64,000 nucleotides of DNA from Roseivivax jejudonensis (lineage in GTDB: Bacteria > Pseudomonadota > Alphaproteobacteria > Rhodobacterales > Rhodobacteraceae), in NCBI RefSeq assembly GCF_900172265.1, contig NZ_FWFK01000004.1, forward strand, positions 186,001 to 250,000. Reading direction: 5' to 3'. The number at the start of each line of letters is the position of its first letter. Position 1 is the first letter of the stretch. Below the pieces are notes generated by a model, which saw only the letters and a program-made list of their open reading frames with translations, ran no database searches and was not told the origin of the DNA. The position numbers and the translations under genes are program-made. Of this stretch, positions 1 to 40,500 are shown in pieces.

Positions 1-111
1 GCTGGCGAAGCTCGGGGTCGCGTAGCTCGCGCTGCGGGTCACGCTGTCGCGCGCACCACAGGCGGACAGCACGACCAGCGCCGCCGCCATCATCACGGGA
101 ATTGCCTTCAT
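1..111 (-). CDS. Small lipoprotein, C-terminus outside the window
   Basis: The first 37 codons of a gene that runs off the left edge. The N-terminus is a short positively charged start, a hydrophobic stretch and a lipobox (LSAC, Cys at about residue 18), so the product is predicted to be exported, lipidated and membrane anchored. The mature part visible here is Ser/Ala-rich and has no recognisable domain. Function unknown. The start is the only ATG that puts the signal peptide at the N-terminus. Confidence 0.6.
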   Translation of the reverse strand, partial: MKAIPVMMAAALVVLSACGARDSVTRSASYATPSFAS

Positions 112-287
112 TGCCTGTCCCTCGTCCGGGCCGGGTCGGCACGCTCTGCGGCGCGTCATCCGTCCCCGGCATCACTGCCATTACGGCACCATGACCCGAA
201 CGAAGGCAATTTTCAATTCACGCGCGCGTTTGGCGGGCGTTTTTGATGCGCCGCGTCGCAAAAATGCGCGGCGCGCGACCCGTCCGG
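112..287. other. Intergenic gap with one GC-rich hairpin
   Basis: No gene seen. An 8-bp inverted repeat (248-255 with 267-274) could fold downstream of the acylphosphatase gene, but no T-run follows it on the minus strand, so it is at best a weak terminator. The rest should contain the promoter of the lipoprotein gene at 1-111; no clear -35/-10 is visible. Confidence 0.3.
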
Positions 288-572
288 TCAGTCGCGGATC
301 TCGACATCCTTGCAGCCGCGCACGGCCTCGAGGTCGCCGGGCTGCGTCTCCACCTCGGCCACCTGCGCCGCGCGGGGGCCGGCGCGCATGTCCGCGACCA
401 CCGCCTCGAGGTCCAGCGCCTCGCCGGCCAGCGCGGCCTCCACGCTGCCGTCCCCGGCGTTGCGGACCCAGCCGCGCACGTGCCGGGCGGCCGCCGCCTC
501 GCGCACGAAATCGCGGTAGCCCACGCCCTGCACCTTGCCGTTCACCATCACCTGCATCGCCGTCTCTGCCAT
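288..572 (-). CDS. acyP: Acylphosphatase
   Basis: Hydrolyses carboxyl-phosphate bonds of acyl phosphates in the cytoplasm. The 94-residue protein has the family signature near residue 11 (GKVQGVGYRDF, with the phosphate-binding Arg) and the second signature with the catalytic Asn (WVRNAGDGSV). Length matches the family, usually about 90-100 aa. A longer open frame extends upstream, but the ATG at 572 gives the normal N-terminus. It is divergent from lepA, with a 214-bp gap in which no clear promoter can be picked by eye. Confidence 0.9.
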   Translation of the reverse strand: MAETAMQVMVNGKVQGVGYRDFVREAAAARHVRGWVRNAGDGSVEAALAGEALDLEAVVADMRAGPRAAQVAEVETQPGDLEAVRGCKDVEIRD

Positions 573-786
573 CGGATCGTCCTTTCGTGTCAAGCCGTGG
601 CGCCGGCCATCGCGGCGCCGCACCGTCCCAACCCGCGCACCGCGCCACCGTTCCCCGATCGCGCCCGGTCCGGCGCCTGGGGCCCCGCGACCACGCGCCC
701 CGCAGGACGCGCTTTAATCCCGCGTCCGAACCCTGTAGGCAGTCGCAAATCCCGCGCCCCCCGCGCCGCAACCCGGATTGCAGGAC

Positions 787-2589
787 ATGACCCCACTCTC
801 GCGCATCCGCAACTTCTCGATCGTCGCGCATATCGACCACGGCAAATCGACGCTGGCCGACCGGCTGATCCAGCTGACCGGCACCGTGTCCGAGCGCGAC
901 ATGCAGGACCAGCTGCTCGACTCGATGGACATCGAGCGCGAGCGCGGCATCACCATCAAGGCCAACACCGTCCGGATCGAGTACCCCGCCAAGGACGGCG
1001 AGACCTACGTGCTCAACCTCATCGACACGCCCGGCCACGTGGACTTCGCCTACGAGGTCGCGCGCTCCATGCAGGCGGTCGAGGGCTCGCTCCTGGTCGT
1101 CGACGCGACGCAGGGGGTCGAGGCGCAGACCCTCGCCAACGTCTACACCGCGATCGACGCCGACCACGAGATCGTGCCGGTCCTCAACAAGGTCGACCTG
1201 CCCGCCGCCGATCCCGACCGCGTGCGCGAACAGATCGAGGACGTGATCGGCATCGACGCCTCCGAGGCCTGCCTGATCTCCGCCAAGACCGGCATCGGCA
1301 TCCCCGACGTGCTCGAGGCCATCGTGCAGAAGCTTCCGCCCCCCGAGGGCGGCGATCCCGACGCGCCGCTCAAGGCGATGCTGGTCGACTCCAAGTACGA
1401 CCAGTATCTCGGCGTGATCTGTATCGTCCGGGTGATCGACGGCACGCTCAAGAAGGGCGACCGCATCCGCATGATCAAGACCGGCGGCACCTACGACGTC
1501 GACGACGTCGGCGTCTACCGTCCCGCGATGAAGGCGGTGCAGACCCTCGGCCCGGGCGAGATCGGCTACCTCAACGCCTCGATCAAGCAGGTGCGCGACA
1601 CCCGCGTCGGCGACACCATCACCCACGAGAAGCGCCCGTGCGAGACGCCCCTGCCCGGCTTCAAGCCGTCGGTGCCGGTGGTCTTCTGCGGCCTCTTCCC
1701 CGTGGACGCCAACGACTTCGAGGACATGCGCGACGCCATCGAGAAGCTCGCGCTCAACGACGCCTCCTTCACCTACGAGATGGAGACCTCGGCCGCGCTC
1801 GGCTTCGGCTTCCGCTGCGGCTTCCTCGGCCTTCTGCATCTCGAGGTGATCCGCGACCGGCTGGAGCGCGAGTACAACATCGAGCTCATCACCACCGCGC
1901 CCTCGGTGATCTACCACCTCTACACCAAGGACGGGGAGCGCAAGGACCTGCACAACCCCGCCGACATGCCCGACCAGACCCACGTCGCGCATATCGAGGA
2001 GCCGCGCATCAAGGCGACCATCATGGTCCCCGACGAGTATCTCGGCGACGTGCTCAAGCTCTGCCAGGAGCGGCGCGGCATCCAGCTCGACCTGACCTAT
2101 GTCGGCGGCCGCGCGATGGCGGTGTACGATCTCCCCCTCAACGAAGTGGTGTTCGACTTCTACGATCGCCTGAAATCGGTAACGAAAGGTTACGCGAGCT
2201 TCGATTACGAGATGATCGGCTACCGCGAGGACAACCTCGTGAAGATGCAGATCCTCGTCAACGACGAGCCCGTGGACGCGCTCGCCATGATGGTCCACCG
2301 CGACCGCGCCGAACAGCGCGGCCGCGCCATGTGCGAAAAGCTCAAGGAGCTGATCCCCCGCCACATGTTCAAGATCCCGATCCAGGCGGCGATCGGCGCC
2401 AAGGTCATCGCCCGCGAGACCCTGTCCGCGATGCGCAAGGACGTGACCGCCAAGTGCTACGGCGGCGACGCGACGCGGAAAAAGAAGCTTCTGGAAAAGC
2501 AGAAGGCCGGCAAGAAGAAGATGCGCCAGTTCGGGAAGGTGGAGATCCCGCAGGAGGCGTTCATCTCGGCGCTGAAGATGGACAGCTAA
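787..2589 (+). CDS. lepA: Elongation factor 4 (LepA)
   Basis: Ribosome-associated translational GTPase. The 600-aa length equals that of typical LepA. G-domain motifs are visible: G1 AHIDHGKST at about residues 16-24, G3 DTPGH at about 80, and G4 NKVD at about 134; the lysine-rich LepA C-terminal tail is present ([16 protein letters not shown]). A TTG at 778 is also in frame, but the ATG at 787 aligns with the usual N-terminus ([14 protein letters not shown]). High GC and regular codon use contrast sharply with the two genes that follow. Confidence 0.97.
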
Positions 2590-2723
2590 CTCTCTACAGG
2601 CGAAACCAACGGCTGTCTGGCGGAAACTCAGCCCTATTAAGATAGGTTTTTTCTTGTACGCTGGTACGGTAGGCCTCAAGCTGATGGAGCGAAGAAAACT
2701 CCACTTAAGCGGCGCCTTTCCTA
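2590..2723. other. AT-richer junction between lepA and the inserted gene pair
   Basis: Base composition drops just after the lepA stop. There is no obvious terminator hairpin after lepA. Around 2653-2672 two GTACG pentamers lie 3 nt apart, possibly an operator. No attachment-site repeat or tRNA end is visible. The promoter for the downstream pair is expected here but cannot be pinned down. Confidence 0.3.
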
Positions 2724-3545
2724 ATGAAATTGTTCCTTTACCGTCTTTCCCTTACAGATCAGTACGCCGGGGGCTTATTTGAAGGTGTCTACGAACCCGA
2801 AATAAGCCGAGAGGAGTTCTTACGACGTAGGCTCAGCTCTTCTTTTGGCTTTGACTATAGAAAGGGAATACGCCTTCGCTACGAGTTCATCCAAGAGGAT
2901 AGAGGCATTATCGCCGCAGCCCTTTGCCGATGGATTCCAGAAACGGCTGAGAACGACCCTGCTGATCCCTTCGCCCAATCTGAGGGCGGCAGGTGGAAAC
3001 GCGCCGCAGTATTCTGCAACATTAGCGATGATCAGCAAGTTGTCGGTCTAGAAGATGTGAACGGTGTTGGAACACCCGATTCCATTCTTGGGGGATTGGT
3101 CGAGACGATAAACGCTTTTACTTTAGGTGAACCGTACCGGATTGACGCCGAAGCACTCCCGCGTTCAGGAAGCTTTCGGGAGGCTGTATCCGGATTCCCA
3201 GGACCGATCACTAGCATCAAATTTGATCTTGTAGTACCAAATCCGCCCGATGCGGAAAAGGAGACGCGCGAAGCTCTGAAGCGACTCAGAGAAGAAACTG
3301 GGATGGAGCGAAGGAAAGAAGAGCTTTCCAGCGAGCACGGTCTCAATGTTGATAGCGAGTATATCAACGGATTCGTCCAGTACTCTGAGGAGGGTGGCGG
3401 AAATATTGTTGCCAAGAGCGCGTCAGAAGAGGTTTACAATTCGAATAAGATGGTACGGTATGCTACAATATCGGACGAACTGCGGCCCACCGGCTCACCA
3501 ATAAAGAACCTTTTCAACGCCCTGATAGAGATACTGATGAAGTGA
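2724..3545 (+). CDS. RexA-like cytoplasmic protein of an AT-rich two-gene unit
   Basis: A 273-aa soluble protein with no signal peptide or membrane segment. From residue about 95 it runs through a beta-rich core (AAVFCNISDDQQVVGLEDV, then a TPDSILGGLVETINAF helix, then ITSIKFDLVVPNP), and it ends in a helical tail. This order, the length and the coupling to a four-helix membrane protein resemble lambda RexA (279 aa), compared from memory and not by alignment. In lambda, RexA senses phage complexes and activates the RexB channel. Base composition and codon use are clearly more AT-rich than in flanking genes, which suggests horizontal transfer. No strong Shine-Dalgarno is seen before the ATG. 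It could instead be an unrelated hypothetical protein. Confidence 0.55.
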   Translation: MKLFLYRLSLTDQYAGGLFEGVYEPEISREEFLRRRLSSSFGFDYRKGIRLRYEFIQEDRGIIAAALCRWIPETAENDPADPFAQSEGGRWKRAAVFCNISDDQQVVGLEDVNGVGTPDSILGGLVETINAFTLGEPYRIDAEALPRSGSFREAVSGFPGPITSIKFDLVVPNPPDAEKETREALKRLREETGMERRKEELSSEHGLNVDSEYINGFVQYSEEGGGNIVAKSASEEVYNSNKMVRYATISDELRPTGSPIKNLFNALIEILMK

Positions 3546-3985
3546 GAAAAGTTCCGCTAATATCTCTCATCGTACTGGCAGGCGTGTTTACATGCCTTTC
3601 CATTATCGAACCCAAACTTCTGGGATCAAATCGGTTCTTAGTGGAGTTCACCAACTACAACTTTATTAATATTCTGACAGTAATTGTGACAGTAAGCTTG
3701 GTGTCTATAACTCAAATTCACCTTGAATACTCCCGGATAGAACGCCGCTTCTCAACCAAAGTCTTTGGCCATGCACGCCGAACTCTTAACACAAGCGCAT
3801 TAATTTTGACGGTGGCACTTATGCTGGGATTCCTCATCTCATTTTTGCGCGCCCAATTCAGCTCAAACATTACTGCTGTATCATTCATTCATAGCTTTTG
3901 CCTCCTAGTGATTTTTGAGGTAGTCTTTGTAATGTATGATGTTATGAGGGCAGTTTATGCATTAGCGGAAGACGAACCGCATTGA
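3542..3985 (+). CDS. RexB-like four-helix membrane protein
   Basis: A 147-aa inner-membrane protein starting at a GTG that overlaps the upstream TGA by 4 nt, so the two are translationally coupled. Hydrophobic helices lie at about residues 5-22, 40-58, 85-106 and 112-135, with a basic cytoplasmic loop (SRIERRFSTKVFGHARR) between the second and third. Lambda RexB is 144 aa with four helices, a basic loop at the same place and, from memory, an SFIH tetrapeptide in the fourth helix; the same SFIH occurs here. If the relationship holds, the protein would act as a depolarising channel during phage infection. AT-rich like its partner. Confidence 0.55.
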   Translation: MRKVPLISLIVLAGVFTCLSIIEPKLLGSNRFLVEFTNYNFINILTVIVTVSLVSITQIHLEYSRIERRFSTKVFGHARRTLNTSALILTVALMLGFLISFLRAQFSSNITAVSFIHSFCLLVIFEVVFVMYDVMRAVYALAEDEPH

Positions 3986-4152
3986 ATCCGGGAGTTATCC
4001 GCGCAGCGCTTATTATACCAAGAAATCTCCGCTACAGCCTCCGGCTACCGTCATAGTGCGACCTCAGCAAAGCAATTCTGAGTCCGCAGGCGAGCGGAAC
4101 CCATCCCCCCTCGACCCTGTTCTCCCGCGACACCGCACAGCAGGAGAAGCCC

Positions 4153-4482
4153 ATGGCGAAGTCGCGTGACGAGATCTGGGACGAGTGGCAGGACCTCGTG
4201 AACATGGCCCCGAAGGAGCTGGAGGACTGGCTCGAGACCGAGGAGTCGAAAGAGGTCGGCGACAGCGAGGACGGAGAATCCACCGGCCACGCCTCGGGGC
4301 GGAAGATCGTGCAGATCCAGCGCACCGACAAGGCCGACCTCTCGGACGACCAGTGGGACCACATGGCCAAGGTCGTGGCCTACATCAAGCGTCACACCGC
4401 GCAGGGCGGCCCGGACGACGACCCCGCGCATTCCGACTGGCGCTATTCGCTGATGAACTGGGGCCACGACCCCTGCAAGTGA
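4153..4482 (+). CDS. DUF3140 family protein
   Basis: A 109-aa acidic cytoplasmic protein with an AGGAG Shine-Dalgarno 7 nt before its ATG. The order MAKSRDEIWDEWQDLVN... GHASGRKIVQI... WRYSLMNWGHDP matches the DUF3140 family, whose function is unknown; some members are annotated as possible DNA-binding proteins. GC content returns to the chromosomal norm here, so it marks the right edge of the AT-rich insert. The 167 bp before it hold no gene that I can see. Confidence 0.75.
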   Translation: MAKSRDEIWDEWQDLVNMAPKELEDWLETEESKEVGDSEDGESTGHASGRKIVQIQRTDKADLSDDQWDHMAKVVAYIKRHTAQGGPDDDPAHSDWRYSLMNWGHDPCK

Positions 4483-4525
4483 GCCGCCGGCGCGCCGTGT
4501 CGCGGGCGCACCGGCCTCCGGTGTC

Positions 4526-4831
4526 TCAGGGCTCGTCGTCGGTGACGATCACCAGGTCGAGGTCGTCGGTGTTCGTGCCCTGGCAGCAATAGGCCTCGCA
4601 GGTCTGGCAGTCCTTGCAGTAGCGCGTACAGGTGAGCGCCGTGCCTTGCGGGCTGACGATGGTCGAGGTCGCGTTGCTCTGGTTCATCCGGTTCAGCAGC
4701 ACCGCCAGCGCATTGACGGCCTGGGACAGCTCCTGCGTCTGGACGGGATTGGCGGTCTGGCCTTCGTTCTGGGCCATCCCACCTGTCGGCAGAACGGCAC
4801 AGCACACGAGGGCGAGCAGAATGCGTCGCAT
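4526..4831 (-). CDS. Small exported cysteine-rich protein
   Basis: A 101-aa protein with a Sec signal peptide (about residues 1-20, ending GGMAQ). The mature part has a hydrophilic Asn/Gln-rich region and then six closely spaced cysteines in a CTRYCKDCQTCEAYCC pattern, followed by an acidic tail. The cluster suggests disulphides or metal binding in the periplasm; no family recognised. The start is chosen because AAGGAG precedes the ATG at 4831; an in-frame start 54 nt upstream lacks this. Confidence 0.6.
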   Translation of the reverse strand: MRRILLALVCCAVLPTGGMAQNEGQTANPVQTQELSQAVNALAVLLNRMNQSNATSTIVSPQGTALTCTRYCKDCQTCEAYCCQGTNTDDLDLVIVTDDEP

Positions 4832-4969
4832 CGGCAATCTCCTTGGGAATATCAATGGGCTAATATCCAAGGAGCTTACGCCCACGCGGACGATTCGACA
4901 ACCTAAAGTAGAGTCACCCCGCGATATTCACCGCATGACGAAAGTTCCACCGCCGGCGCGCCCTGCGCG

Positions 4970-5326
4970 TCAGGCCAGCGCCTTCTCGCGCCCCGCGGCA
5001 TAGACCGCCACGGCCACGATCGCGTAGACGCCGTTCACCACGAACACCATCGTCCACGGCGCCCCGGCGCCCCAGATCAGCTTGGCCGACACCGACGCCA
5101 GCAGGTTCAGCACGACGAAGCCCGTGGCGCCCGCCGCCACCGGCGCCATCCGCGCGAAGATCGGCACCAGCGCGAGCGCGAAGACGATCGACCAGAACTC
5201 CCGCCCCGGGCTCAGGATCAGCGGCCAGAGCGGCGCCCCGAACAGCACGGAGACCGCGATCGAGTTGGCGATGCAGCCGGCGATGCCGGCCAGCGCGGCA
5301 AGGAGGAGGAGGCGCGGGGTGAACAT
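4970..5326 (-). CDS. Small integral membrane protein
   Basis: A 118-aa protein with about four hydrophobic helices (residues about 4-28, 44-60, 64-86 and 92-112) and short loops, ending in a basic tail. No family recognised. It stands alone between two other minus-strand genes with gaps of more than 60 bp, so an operon is not evident. Confidence 0.6.
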   Translation of the reverse strand: MFTPRLLLLAALAGIAGCIANSIAVSVLFGAPLWPLILSPGREFWSIVFALALVPIFARMAPVAAGATGFVVLNLLASVSAKLIWGAGAPWTMVFVVNGVYAIVAVAVYAAGREKALA

Positions 5327-5395
5327 GTCTGAGGGGCCTTTCGTTGTCTGTCGTCCGATCCTAGCGCGGCCCGCGCCCGGACCAAGCCGGTCCGC

Positions 5396-5650
5396 TCAAT
5401 CCTCGTAGCCGGCGTTGCGGCGCAGCGTCTCCCACGCCTTGAGCGCCTCGTGCTGGCGCCGCTGCATGTCGCGCAGCGTCCACGCCTCCACGTCCGCGTA
5501 AAGATCCGCGTGCCAGATCGGCACCAGCGCCGCGACCCGTCGGCCGTGATGCGTGACGTAGATCTGCCCGCCCTCGCGGACGAAGCCCACCTTCTCCGCC
5601 AGCCGGTCGCGCAGGATCGAGATGCTGACCTCCTCGAAGTCCGGCGTCAT
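5396..5650 (-). CDS. Phd/YefM-type antitoxin without a visible toxin
   Basis: An 84-aa protein beginning TPDFEEVSISILRDRL, followed by IYVTHHGRRVAALVPI, the usual N-terminal DNA-binding arrangement of type II Phd/YefM antitoxins (prevent-host-death family). A strong AGGAGG stands before the ATG at 5650. Such genes normally overlap a PIN, Doc or RelE-type toxin, but none lies on either side: the next gene downstream is a membrane protein 69 bp away. It may be an orphan regulator or the remains of a toxin-antitoxin pair. Confidence 0.7.
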   Translation of the reverse strand: MTPDFEEVSISILRDRLAEKVGFVREGGQIYVTHHGRRVAALVPIWHADLYADVEAWTLRDMQRRQHEALKAWETLRRNAGYED

Positions 5651-5935
5651 GGAGCCTCCTTTCGCTCGGCCCCTGCATCCTGCCCTCTCCGCCTTTCGGA
5701 TCCGCGACCGCACCGCGCGGTCCGTCTCTGCGGTGCGCCTCCCGGGCCCGTGCCGCGCGACGCCGTCCGCCCGTCGGACGCTTCGGCCGGCGCGACCGAG
5801 TCCCGGGGGCACATTCCGGCCCCAGGACGACCGCCCGATCGGGGCGCGCGGGGCCGCTCCGCCGGCCATTTCGTACGATTTTCCCGGATTTTGCGCGGGA
5901 TGGCGTACAAACCGCCCCCCGATTTCGGACGAACC
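5651..5935. repeat. Gene-free stretch with a TCGTACGA-type element
   Basis: No gene seen in 285 bp. Positions 5869-5884 read TTTCGTACGATTTTCC and are identical to 38101-38116. Nearby, CGTACAAA followed by TTTCGGAC (about 5903-5930) also has a counterpart at about 38051-38080, in a different order. The core TCGTACGA is palindromic. The function of this shared module is unknown. Confidence 0.5.
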
Positions 5936-6397
5936 TTACGACCTTTTGCGCGCCAGCGCGTCCAGGAGCCCGTCCGCCGCGCGCTCCACCAGCGCCAGCG
6001 CCCCGTCGAAATCCCTTGTATGATAAGGGTCTGGCACGTGATCCGCGTCCTCGTCCACGTAATCCGTGAACATCCCCAGCTCCGCCCGCGCCCCCGCCGG
6101 CGCCATCGCCGCGAGGTCCGACAGGTTCTGCCGATCCATCGCCAGGATCATGTCGAAGTCATTGAAATCGCTCACCGAAACCTGGCGCGCGCGCAGCCCC
6201 GACAGGTCGTATCCCCGCGCCTGTCCGGCCGCCTGCATCGGCCCGTAGGGCGGCTCGCCCAGGTGCCAGTCGCCGGTGCCCGCGCTGTCGAGCTCCAGCC
6301 GCAGCCCCCGCGCCGCCGCCTTCGCCGCCACCACCGCCTCCGCCGACGGAGACCGGCAGATGTTGCCGAGGCAGACAAATAGAATACGCTGTGTCAT
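5936..6397 (-). CDS. Low-molecular-weight protein tyrosine phosphatase
   Basis: A 153-aa cytoplasmic phosphatase with the P-loop CLGNICRSPSAE at about residues 9-20 (nucleophile Cys and phosphate-binding Arg) and the general-acid loop VPDPYHTRD near residue 125. Length fits LMW-PTP. The start at 6397 (MTQRILFVCL) is preferred over an ATG 9 nt upstream because the family begins just before the first strand. It is divergent from the sirtuin gene with only 39 bp between start codons, so the two must share a very compact promoter region. Confidence 0.93.
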   Translation of the reverse strand: MTQRILFVCLGNICRSPSAEAVVAAKAAARGLRLELDSAGTGDWHLGEPPYGPMQAAGQARGYDLSGLRARQVSVSDFNDFDMILAMDRQNLSDLAAMAPAGARAELGMFTDYVDEDADHVPDPYHTRDFDGALALVERAADGLLDALARKRS

Positions 6398-6436
6398 ACC
6401 AACCACATAGCCTCCAACTCAGCCCCGGGGAAGCCC

Positions 6437-7129
6437 ATGCGCGACGGCAAGATCGTGATCCTCACCGGCGCCGGAATCTCGGCCGAGAGCGGCCTCGCCA
6501 CCTTTCGCGACGCCGGTGGCCTGTGGGAGCATGTCCGCCTCGAGGACGTCGCCACGCCGGAGGCCTTCGCCCGGAATCCCGACACCGTCCACGCCTTCTA
6601 CAACATGCGCCGCGCGCAGGCCGCCGCCGCCGCTCCCAATGCCGCCCACGCGGCGCTCGCCCGCCTGCAGGCCGCGCACCCCGACACCGTCATCGTGACC
6701 CAGAACGTCGACGCCCTGCACGAGCGCGCGGGCGCCACGGTGATCCACATGCACGGGGCGCTCGCCGGCGCTCTCTGCGCGGCGTGCGACCACCGCTGGG
6801 CGGCACCGCCCGAGATGGACACGACCACGGCCTGCCCCGCCTGCCAGCACCCTGCCGCGCGGCCCGATGTGGTCTGGTTCGGCGAGATGCCCTATCACAT
6901 GGAGACCATCGCCGGTCACCTCGAAACCGCCGACCTCTTCGTCGCGATCGGCACGTCCGGACAGGTCTACCCGGCCGCCGGCTTCGTGGCCGAAGCGCGC
7001 CGCGCCGGCGCGCGCACCCTCGAGCTCAACCTCGCCGCGTCCGACGTCTCCGCCGCATTCGACGCGCACGAGGTCGGTCCGGCGAGCACGATCGTCCCGG
7101 CCTGGGTTCATGACATGCTCGCCGGCTGA
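6437..7129 (+). CDS. cobB: NAD-dependent protein deacylase (class III sirtuin)
   Basis: Removes acyl groups from lysines using NAD. The 230-aa protein shows GAGISAESGLATFRDAGGLW at about residues 11-30, TQNVDALHERAG with catalytic His at HMHG, and a zinc site of two Cys pairs (CAAC and CPAC). Tyr55 and Arg58 in FYNMRRAQ correspond to the Tyr-x-x-Arg pair that lets SIRT5-type enzymes bind succinyl- or malonyl-lysine, so desuccinylase activity is likely in addition to deacetylation. The gene converges on the copper chaperone gene 5 bp away. Confidence 0.95.
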   Translation: MRDGKIVILTGAGISAESGLATFRDAGGLWEHVRLEDVATPEAFARNPDTVHAFYNMRRAQAAAAAPNAAHAALARLQAAHPDTVIVTQNVDALHERAGATVIHMHGALAGALCAACDHRWAAPPEMDTTTACPACQHPAARPDVVWFGEMPYHMETIAGHLETADLFVAIGTSGQVYPAAGFVAEARRAGARTLELNLAASDVSAAFDAHEVGPASTIVPAWVHDMLAG

Positions 7130-38477: not shown

Positions 38478-38529
38478 CCACGGGCCGGCGCTCGCCCGTC
38501 GGCTGCAACCAAACACAGAGACCTCGCGG

Positions 38530-39585
38530 CTAAGGTGCGTCTCCGGTTTCTTGCCATCGCGCTCTGTTTTGAGCGCTGGCGCAAACTTCAAGAAACTCTC
38601 GCGGGCTTTCTTCAGCAAATCGGGCCACCGCCTCCCTTCCGTCACGGAAATAAAATGGCCGCTCTGTCATTGATTGATAGCCTGTATGGCGCTCGTCACC
38701 TTCCTTCGTTTTCCAGAATCCGAGATGAGCGGCAATTTTTCTAAGATGAGTAGAGTTGAAAGGTAAATCGTTAAGAGTAGCCTGCTGCACCCTATGCCTG
38801 ATCTCGTCAGCCGCACGGGATGGCAACATAGGTTGTCGTGGATCGTTAGCAGCAGGCACAGTAAGTTCGATGTTACCCTGTATTTGATACGCAGGAGCTC
38901 CACCATCATCCACAAGATTTGCGCGGTCGATAACGTTTAGATCTTTAGCAGCATCGTAAGGCAAAAAATATGTAACGTCGCCTTCCGCCTCGCCGGGAGA
39001 AGAAGCGTCAGCAATGATTGCTCGATCAAATCCTACTTTTCTACCTCGCGAAAGAAAGCCAAAAATTTGATGCCGTATACTTTCATCCCTTTCTTGCAAT
39101 ATTTGCACAAACTCGCTCCCACTTATCGCGGCAGTCTGACCACGGCGTCGGGCGTATATGACGCCTTGCCTTAACATGTGAGGCTGTCCAGCCCCGGCCG
39201 TTAGGTCTTTGGCTGCAATGCATGGCTTATTAGATAGCGGAGAAACTTGGAGCACGGCAACTCTAATGCCGTGCACCGAGGCCTCACGGAATTCAGTGAT
39301 AGGGTGTGGGACCAAAGAGGTTTTTAGAAGATCTGACTGGATCCCTTCATCCAGCAAGGGTCCAGTCAATCCGATCAAATCACGAGGTCTATCGCAAACC
39401 CCGAAAACAATTATCCCCCCTGACTGATTACTAAACGCCGCGATTGTCTTCATGCATTTCTTGAAAGTCACTTCGTTCAGAATCTGTTTGAACTCTAGCT
39501 CAGTGCTTTCACGCGCGGTTACTCTCAAGACCCCGCCATTTGAGACCACATCCAGACGTTCTTCCAACTCGCCATCTGTAATCAA
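38530..39585 (-). CDS. Schlafen/AlbA_2-type domain protein in an AT-rich insert
   Basis: A 351-aa cytoplasmic protein. Residues about 25-160 form an AlbA_2 (Schlafen-like) domain: ESTELEFKQILN near 27, then FKKCMKTIAAFSNQSGGIIVFGV, and a later RRGQTAAISGSEF. The rest is unknown. Start is TTG at 39585, 3 bp after the thyX stop, with GGAG inside the last thyX codons, so it is coupled to thyX. Base composition is far more AT-rich than thyX. Such domains occur in regulators and in defence genes; here the role is open. Confidence 0.75.
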   Translation of the reverse strand: MITDGELEERLDVVSNGGVLRVTARESTELEFKQILNEVTFKKCMKTIAAFSNQSGGIIVFGVCDRPRDLIGLTGPLLDEGIQSDLLKTSLVPHPITEFREASVHGIRVAVLQVSPLSNKPCIAAKDLTAGAGQPHMLRQGVIYARRRGQTAAISGSEFVQILQERDESIRHQIFGFLSRGRKVGFDRAIIADASSPGEAEGDVTYFLPYDAAKDLNVIDRANLVDDGGAPAYQIQGNIELTVPAANDPRQPMLPSRAADEIRHRVQQATLNDLPFNSTHLRKIAAHLGFWKTKEGDERHTGYQSMTERPFYFRDGREAVARFAEESPREFLEVCASAQNRARWQETGDAP

Positions 39586-39588
39586 TTT

Positions 39589-40500
39589 TCAAGATACTCC
39601 AATCACCCCCTTGAACTCCCGCCATTCCCCCTTCGACATCCCGGAATTCTCCTGCGTCACCTCCTCGCCCGCGAGCATCCGCTTCACGCAATCGAGGCCG
39701 GCGGCGGACAGGACCGCGCCGCCCATGCGGTAGTCCTCGAAGGCCTTGTAGGCGAAGGGGACCCAGTCCTTGACCATCTCGCAGATGGCGTCGGCGTAGA
39801 CGCGGATCTCGTATTGAGCGTGGGAATCCGCGCGGAGGCGGAGGAAATGGAGGAGGTTGTGGAGGTCCACCTTCCAGTACCACTGGGTGTAGATGTTGGC
39901 GGGCAGGTTCATGCGGGCGAGCTCGCGGGCGAGGCCCTGCTGGCCGTCGTCCGAGATCATCGCCTCGTAATGGTCGTAGGCGCGGGTGGCGTCGTCGCGC
40001 AGCCAGCGCAGGACGCGCTCGGCCTCCTCGCCCGAGAGCGCCTCGCCCCGGCCCTGGTTGTTGACCGTCGACTGCGCGGCGAGCGCGTCGGCCTCGGGGA
40101 TGTAGAACTCGCGGTCGAGGATGGAGTAGCGCGCGGAATACTCGTTCACGTTCGCGGTGCGGTGGCGGATCCACTGCCGCGCGACGAAGACCGGCAGCTT
40201 CACGTGCAGCTTGATCTCGCACATCTCGAAGGGCGTGGAGTGCCAGTGCCGCATGAGGTACCGGATCAGCCCCTCGTCGTTCGACACCGACTTGGTGCCG
40301 CGGCCGTAGCTGACGCGGGCGGCCTGGCAGATGGCGCTGTCGTCGCCCATGTAGTCGATGACCCGGACGAAGCCGTGATCGAGCACCGGACGCGCGCGGT
40401 AGAGATGCGCCTCCATCGCCGGAACCGTGGCGCGCAGCGTCTGGACGGGCTGCGCGCGAAGCTCTTCGATCTCGGCCTCTTGTTCGGGAGTCAGGGGCAT
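39589..40500 (-). CDS. thyX: FAD-dependent thymidylate synthase
   Basis: Makes dTMP from dUMP with methylene-tetrahydrofolate and FAD. The 303-aa protein has the ThyX signature [15 protein letters not shown] at about residues 122-136 and the flanking [20 protein letters not shown] block. The length is above that of short ThyX proteins but usual for alphaproteobacteria. AGAGGA precedes the ATG. The downstream gene is an AT-rich acquisition that uses the thyX message. Confidence 0.96.

Follow-up and report, generated by a model that had tools for sequence, protein, structure and literature searches.

The 64,000-nucleotide stretch of the Roseivivax jejudonensis genome analysed in this study (hereafter the window) carries, directly behind lepA, two overlapping AT-rich genes whose arrangement recalls rexA and rexB of phage lambda. 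The locus raises the question of whether this pair constitutes a Rex-like abortive-infection module residing in a bacterial chromosome. Gene A (positions 2724..3545, plus strand) starts with ATG and encodes a protein of 273 aa, the proposed RexA-like sensor, while gene B (3542..3985, plus strand) starts with GTG and encodes a protein of 147 aa, the proposed RexB-like membrane effector. Both ORFs are intact, lie on one strand and have the coordinates given in an earlier note made from the sequence alone, and several other traits that it had listed were also confirmed: (i) hydropathy analysis predicts no membrane segment in A, which is consistent with a soluble protein, (ii) four membrane segments are predicted in B, for which a four-helix structure model was also obtained, (iii) the end of A and the start of B share the four bases GTGA (3542..3545, plus strand), and (iv) the base composition of the pair is unlike that of both neighbours. 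The G+C content of A is 50% (51% at third codon positions, GC3) and that of B is 42% (GC3 45%), compared with 65% (GC3 95%) for the lepA gene on the left, 66% (GC3 93%) for the DUF3140 gene on the right and 69% for the window. The GTGA overlap, whose counterpart in the relative of genome G340 (see below) is ATGA, suggests that translation of A and B is probably coupled.

Scans of the Pfam, NCBIfam, PHROGs and PADLOC libraries did not name either of the window proteins. The best scores (E 0.096 for A; E 0.0044 over 35 residues for B) were far under the cut-offs and were absent for the proteins of G340. No domain was recognised in A in any of these libraries, nor in its relatives, which were scanned against Pfam. 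That A and B are genes and not chance ORFs follows from their relatives in other loci. When the window proteins alone were used as queries (phmmer; 1,946 ORFs of 19 loci), full-length relatives of A were found with E values of 9.7e-58 to 1.2e-10 and relatives of B with E values of 2.6e-39 to 1.6e-6.

The pair occupies an AT-rich islet (2590..4092; 1503 bp, 48.2% GC) located between lepA (778..2589, plus strand; assigned with Pfam) and the DUF3140 gene (4153..4482, plus strand; Pfam PF11338, E 7.4e-37). The limits of the islet were defined by a blastn comparison with a genome of the same genus, G002, in which the alignment reaches position 2587 of the window and resumes at position 4093. The lepA stop codon and the ATG of the DUF3140 gene are 150 bp apart in G002, which represents the empty site, versus 1563 bp in the window, and the insert relative to G002 (approximately 1.5 kb) contains only the A-B pair. 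No phage genes were recognised nearby, in positions 1-7000 of the window, which fits a placement of the pair outside any prophage. The gene for the DUF3140 protein is present in three of nine genomes of the genus, and A was not found in any of the eight other genomes of the genus. Another of these, G008, has a gap of 1361 bp between lepA and the DUF3140 gene, filled by a different AT-rich insert (47% GC). The G008 insert (L061:139-1191) contains an ORF of 350 aa, whose ATG overlaps the lepA stop codon (TGATG) and which has no Pfam or PADLOC matches. Given the empty site of G002 and the different cargo of G008, the site behind lepA accepts small foreign inserts, of which the A-B pair is one, and would appear to be a hotspot of insertion.

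Inspection of the gap between lepA and A revealed a weak candidate terminator hairpin (2633..2652, plus strand; CCTAT-TAAG-ATAGG followed by six T residues). The fold containing it has an energy no better than that of shuffled sequences, and a scan for promoters and terminators found nothing on the coding strand and did not report this hairpin. Since a hairpin with six T residues lies between lepA and A, the latter may have its own promoter. Elsewhere in the window, only one other stretch (38501-39800) falls below 56% GC in 500-bp steps. Its lowest 500 bp have 48% GC, and it contains a lone ORF of 351 aa (38530-39585, minus strand), which we take to be of the Schlafen/AlbA_2 type and which adjoins a gene that is presumably thyX-like. 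This stretch may be another small foreign islet beside a housekeeping gene.

We then consider how widely the pair is distributed. Among 394 genomes of the family, the search with A revealed one full-length relative, located in G340 (contig CANMPK010000001.1 of an uncultured Rhodobacteraceae bacterium; E 1.5e-56). The A proteins of G340 and the window share about 38-39% identity and the B proteins 47%. The same search returned from G359 the first 47 aa of an A protein, located at a contig end (L003:1501-1644). A search of an equal number of family genomes with B added G086 (E 7e-16), in which the frame upstream of B, at the start of the contig, contains a C-terminal part of A (L039:48-413). The partial copies of A in G359 and G086 both sit at contig ends and may be truncated genes or assembly ends alike. 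Among 347 genomes of the class, the search with A added G815 (E 6e-16), where the start of B overlaps A by 14 bases and B is cut by the contig end. The G815 pair (L071:1175-2468) is found in a housekeeping neighbourhood, next to genes that we take to be rimP-like and nusA-like.

A number of candidates were rejected. In the first A search, 24 of 26 genomes (all but G000 and G340) were dropped as chance matches, with G359 kept as a terminal fragment of A. Five of the eight genomes of the family B search were dropped for the same reason, as were G947, G1033 and G1048 of the class A search; the matching frame of G947 presumably belongs to an amino-acid dehydrogenase and that of G1048 to a succinyl-CoA ligase. 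G483, returned by a search with the B alignment, was dropped because of stops in frame. The B-alignment searches of 398, 176 and 204 genomes revealed no further relatives, and a scan of the genome contigs with a two-row B alignment returned only the G340 contig. Single-sequence scans of the genome and viral contigs and three earlier alignment scans of the viral contigs gave no relatives, and tblastn of A, B and their relatives against phage and plasmid records produced short matches only (E 0.09 or worse).

A pattern scan of the viral collection, with an alignment that included the G086 and G815 sequences, identified five relatives of B, in contigs L075-L079, and a repeat scan with an eight-row alignment returned the identical five contigs. 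All five contain a full-length A immediately 5′ of B; given the starts as chosen, the overlap of the two frames ranges from 14 to 83 bases. The relation between the window pair and the viral pairs is secure: in phmmer searches of the 1,946 ORFs, each window protein, used as a single query, recovered all five of its viral counterparts, with E values of 5e-20 to 1.2e-10 for A and 3.2e-16 to 3.4e-12 for B.

In total, full-length A was obtained from eight loci (the window, G340, G815 and the five viral contigs), with partial copies in G359 and G086, and B from nine (the window, G340, G086, G815 and the five viral contigs); beyond the window, this amounts to seven loci with full-length A and eight with B, one of the latter (G815) being cut by the contig end. 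Starting from the two window proteins, homologues of both were thus found in other loci, and the idea that such homologues never occur as a pair is contradicted, because an A-like sequence lies immediately upstream of B in all nine loci with B (with A partial in G086 and B cut in G815). A fair test of this pairing is provided by G086 and the five viral contigs, for which B was the sole means of discovery, and each of these six loci contains an A-like sequence. With the starts as chosen, the frames of A and B overlap by 4-83 bases in eight loci and are separated by a gap of 10 bp in G086, where A is partial. These data support the view that A and B form a conserved two-gene unit, which is patchy and mobile. 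The pair is rare and patchy among the genomes searched.

The neighbourhoods of the relatives point to phages and integrative elements. Two of the five viral loci (L077 and L079) contain a gene of a CI-type repressor directly upstream of the pair and on the same strand, the distance from its end to A being 29 bp (11 bp for an earlier possible start of A in L077). The repressors show similarity to Peptidase_S24 (E 1.6e-14 and 2.5e-16, respectively) and to the PHROG 'transcriptional repressor' (E 1.6e-37 and 8.7e-30), with a helix-turn-helix match above the cut-off in L077 only. L077 and L079 are related and have similar A and B proteins; as close relatives, they amount to hardly more than a single case. 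Such a repressor is absent at the window locus and none was recognised in G340. L075 has a same-strand helix-turn-helix gene 0.5 kb upstream, which is below the Pfam cut-offs and has PHROG repressor matches (best E 1.4e-5). In L078 an integrase gene (PF00589, E 5.4e-12) is located beside A, and the contig ends shortly past B. No neighbour was recognised in L076 among the genes scanned. The L077 contig also contains an ORF of 139 aa (L077:5414-5833) overlapping the end of B by four bases, whose product, we assume, resembles a HIRAN-type domain; it is possibly a third gene of the module in that contig.

The G340 pair is located inside a 5.6-kb putative integrative element (L037:5604-11214), comprised of genes in the order (i) tyrosine integrase with an Arm-DNA-bind_3 domain, (ii) weak winged-helix protein (under the cut-off), (iii) unassigned 273-aa protein, (iv) A and (v) B. 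A tRNA-Gly gene is found 0.7 kb past B, and 15 nt of its 3′ end are repeated exactly 157 bp ahead of the integrase gene (18 nt at 94%, E 0.01). A second exact repeat, of 20 nt (E 2e-5), is present just within both ends of the element. Judged by its sequence, this locus appears to be an integrative element of very small size, whose putative main cargo is the A-B pair. Upstream of the element lies a separate locus (L030:44-14149) containing a gene for a 2720-aa protein, which is presumably haemagglutinin-like, a SUKH-type gene and a gene for a ShlB/FhaC transporter; it looks like a two-partner-secretion locus.

The four membrane helices of B were predicted by Kyte-Doolittle hydropathy at aa 4-22 (helix 1; 3551..3607), aa 41-59 (helix 2; 3662..3718), aa 84-102 (helix 3; 3791..3847) and aa 113-131 (helix 4; 3878..3934), all encoded on the plus strand. 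Helices 2 and 3 are joined by a basic loop (aa 60-83; 3719..3790, plus strand), which, judging from its charge, probably faces the cytoplasm. This loop had been put forward in the earlier note as a likeness to RexB, and it is indeed shared, with six K+R residues in B and five in RexB. Four hydropathy segments are predicted in all eight complete B proteins (the cut G815 protein was left out), and in all eight the loop between helices 2 and 3 contains 5-8 K+R, compared with 0-3 for every other loop or tail, although this loop is also a long one. Conservation in the B family peaks from ahead of helix 2 into this loop. The hydropathy count is a crude one: the same script gives four segments for three RexB proteins and CarolAnn gp43, five for Sbash gp31 and three for Sejanus gp45. 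Small four-helix proteins are common, which limits the weight of the layout of B as evidence. The SFIH tetrapeptide of helix 4, also proposed as a link to RexB, occurs in B as well as in each of the three RexB proteins used for comparison; of the eight B-family proteins, however, only one has it. It is thus not conserved in the family and carries no weight. The structure model of B consists of four helices with a mean pLDDT of 71.5, and a Foldseek search with this model gave no matches at E 0.001 (best E 1.1 in PDB and 0.4 in the viral library). Two of the viral B proteins weakly resemble Pfam Yip1 (E 9e-6 and 4.1e-4, under the cut-off).

Eleven positions are invariant in the eight rows of the A alignment (L10, R34, R69, W91, D103, Q105, F151, P172, N173, G206 and G224). 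They do not make up a recognised active site, which would suit a binding protein. An AlphaFold model of A, built from an alignment of two sequences, had a mean pLDDT of 34.5, which is too poor for a comparison of its fold with that of RexA, an RdgC-like two-domain dimer that binds DNA non-specifically.

Whether A and B descend from RexA and RexB of lambda was addressed by sequence comparison. The Pfam RexA model (PF15969) did not match A of the window, G340, G815 or the five viral contigs, and the RexB model (PF15968) did not match B of the window or of seven relatives; CarolAnn gp44, which is called a RexA homologue in the available part of PMC11077077, is also without a Pfam match. In hhalign comparisons, the A family scored 14.1 against RexA and 12.7 in a repeat, in which 37 of 60 column shuffles scored as high. 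A control, actinophage Rex versus lambda RexA, was equally negative (15.5, 15 of 60 shuffles as high), and A compared with actinophage A reached 16.5 (13 of 60). For B and RexB the score of 16.6 was not equalled by any of 60 column shuffles (mean 11.0); it is not counted as homology, since hydrophobic runs are broken up by shuffling and hhalign itself gave a probability of 0.9%. Actinophage B against RexB scored 13.2 (20 of 60), and profile comparison revealed no relation between the B family and actinophage B. The eight-row profiles, searched against 1,946 ORFs at E 0.01, missed all of the Rex proteins of lambda, Klebsiella, Hafnia, CarolAnn, Sbash and Sejanus. Pairwise alignments were evaluated with 300 letter shuffles. 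Those of A with four RexA proteins were equalled by 31-76% of shuffles in local mode and by 1-56% in global mode, the global comparison with Hafnia RexA giving 1% for both A proteins. For B and RexB, the local and global values were 2% and 1% (window), 24% and 1% (G340), and 25% and 24% (G086). These pairwise scores are weak and prone to effects of composition, and were not counted as homology.

The negative result of the profiles says little, because accepted actinophage Rex proteins were missed by the same comparison. Of the proposal that the pair is a diverged Rex-like module, the part concerning a module is upheld by the conserved, patchy and mobile pairing and by the viral relatives, two of five behind a CI-type repressor; the part concerning descent is not, the Pfam models giving no match and the A profile scoring within its shuffles. 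The viral and repressor context is stronger support than the match in lengths noted earlier. The pair is Rex-like in its predicted layout and in its context, and A and B may either have descended from lambda RexA and RexB or have arrived at this arrangement separately. It is possible, although we would give it well under even odds, that they represent a separate, undescribed lineage of repressor-linked sensor and four-helix channel, the cI-sensor-channel layout having evolved more than once in temperate phages, and that in this genome the pair has parted from its phage to serve as an independent chromosomal defence module at the lepA hotspot.

We consider it probable that A and B constitute a Rex-like phage-exclusion module of alphaproteobacteria, which is carried by temperate phages and small integrative elements and is present here as a lone chromosomal islet. 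The window copy thus looks like a phage-derived defence pair, now putatively alone in the chromosome. RexA acts in the known Rex systems as the sensor of infection that triggers the membrane protein RexB, upon which membrane integrity is lost and growth stops (PMC12894663, PMC6426606 and PMC6426596, available parts). By analogy, A would reside in the cytoplasm and sense an incoming phage, with DNA binding or a phage protein as the trigger in the known systems. Once activated, A would act on B at the basic loop joining helices 2 and 3; the membrane protein would open as a channel in the inner membrane, the cell would depolarise or leak, and growth would stop, aborting the infection. The choice of A as the proposed sensor and of the loop as its proposed docking site is based on the conservation of this loop in the B family and on Sbash gp31, which no longer defends when its central cytoplasmic loop is altered (PMC6426596, available part). 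The roles might also be reversed, as in phage Butters, with A as the antiviral or toxic protein and the membrane protein B restraining it until infection. The gene layout would then be identical, such roles are reported for Butters gp30/gp31, and a toxic A is compatible with the lack of a recognised domain in this protein; however, the conserved basic loop of B matches by position the one needed in Sbash gp31, and in the remaining described systems the effector role belongs to B (PMC12894663, available part), which makes a reversal unlikely.

The location of the pair beside a repressor gene in two viral contigs, together with the reported ability of lambda RexA to bias a bistable switch (PMC11077077, available part), would fit a function in lysogeny or superinfection immunity without growth arrest, with A, for example, adjusting the repressor switch and B preventing the entry of DNA. 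We doubt this explanation, since the window copy is kept in an islet without a repressor or any phage gene and the small G340 element has no recognised CI repressor. A module unrelated to phage defence, for example a membrane pair responding to stress or a pair of the toxin-antitoxin type that stabilises mobile elements, would agree with the lack of matches in the defence library and with the flanking lepA and DUF3140 genes, but the relatives occur in repressor and integrase contexts, and we regard it as improbable. The least credible explanation is that of a neutral, non-working remnant of a lost prophage. That the islet holds the pair only can be read either way. Although G086 and G359 carry partial copies of A (both at contig ends), both window frames are intact and overlap as they do in G340, from which A and B have diverged to 38% and 47% identity, respectively.

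If the pair is indeed a phage-exclusion module, its distribution is of some significance. The family occurs at repressor-adjacent phage sites, in an element at a tRNA gene and, as a lone pair, in a chromosome, and is thus a compact test case, which reveals the fixed parts of the module, i.e. the gene order, the four helices and the basic loop of B. Lysogeny control is hardly the job of the window copy. Rex-like genes outside prophages have already been noted in print (PMC11077077, available part), whereas no such alphaproteobacterial family was found in searches of the Rex-system literature. The existence of the present family suggests that current sequence models underestimate how common Rex-like pairs are.

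The lambda RexAB system was the first abortive-infection system, and how T4 rII activates it is not yet understood; only five RexAB-like systems have been described, the named ones all encoded by phages or prophages (PMC12894663, available part). In the window pair, as in lambda, the gene of a soluble protein precedes that of a small membrane protein with four helices, the second and third of which are joined by a basic loop. The lengths also agree, as claimed in the earlier note (RexA, structure 8TWQ, 279 aa; RexB 144 aa), and the four segments of RexB are similarly spaced. The cI-rexA-rexB order is repeated, with a CI-type repressor on the same strand, in the two related viral contigs L077 and L079. 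In contrast to the A-B overlap of the window, rexA and rexB are separated by 15 bp, and they reside in a phage, whereas the window copy lies in a small chromosomal islet without a repressor. Lambda, Sbash, CarolAnn and Pseudomonas putida have in common a soluble RexA-like protein that is held to trigger the membrane protein (PMC12894663, available part). CarolAnn gp44/gp43 resembles the family in the repressor-A-B order and in the overlap of A and B. The A proteins of actinophages (CarolAnn gp44, Sbash gp30 and Sejanus gp46) are longer (356-372 aa, compared with 273 aa in the window), and neither they nor their partners (gp43, gp31 and gp45, respectively) have a significant profile match to the window family. 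The actinophage RexA homologues dimerise and bind DNA (PMC11077077, available part), and a DUF4747 motif links Sbash gp30, CarolAnn gp44 and RexA (PMC6426606 and PMC6426596, available parts). Homologues of Sbash gp30 with a downstream membrane protein are present in some actinobacterial isolates, most likely in prophages (PMC6426596, available part).

Three further systems can be likened to the window pair by description. Butters gp30/gp31 also consists of a soluble and a membrane protein of a temperate phage, with the roles reported as reversed (PMC12894663, available part). Orphan RexA homologues of Shewanella khirikhana and Salinisphaera sp. are chromosomal, like the window pair, and are described as lacking an adjacent RexB and/or lying outside a prophage (PMC11077077, available part). 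Finally, RexABpp of P. putida prophage P1 (PP_5643-PP_5644), which defends its host and damages membranes, combines a nearby CI-like repressor, a soluble DNA-binding A and a four-helix B. Its A protein was tied to RexA by HHpred and AlphaFold, with a reported DALI Z of 8.8 (PMC12894663, available part), a tie that the hhalign and Pfam comparisons did not give for A of the window, and it is in the arrangement of a soluble protein followed by a four-helix membrane protein that the two pairs are alike.
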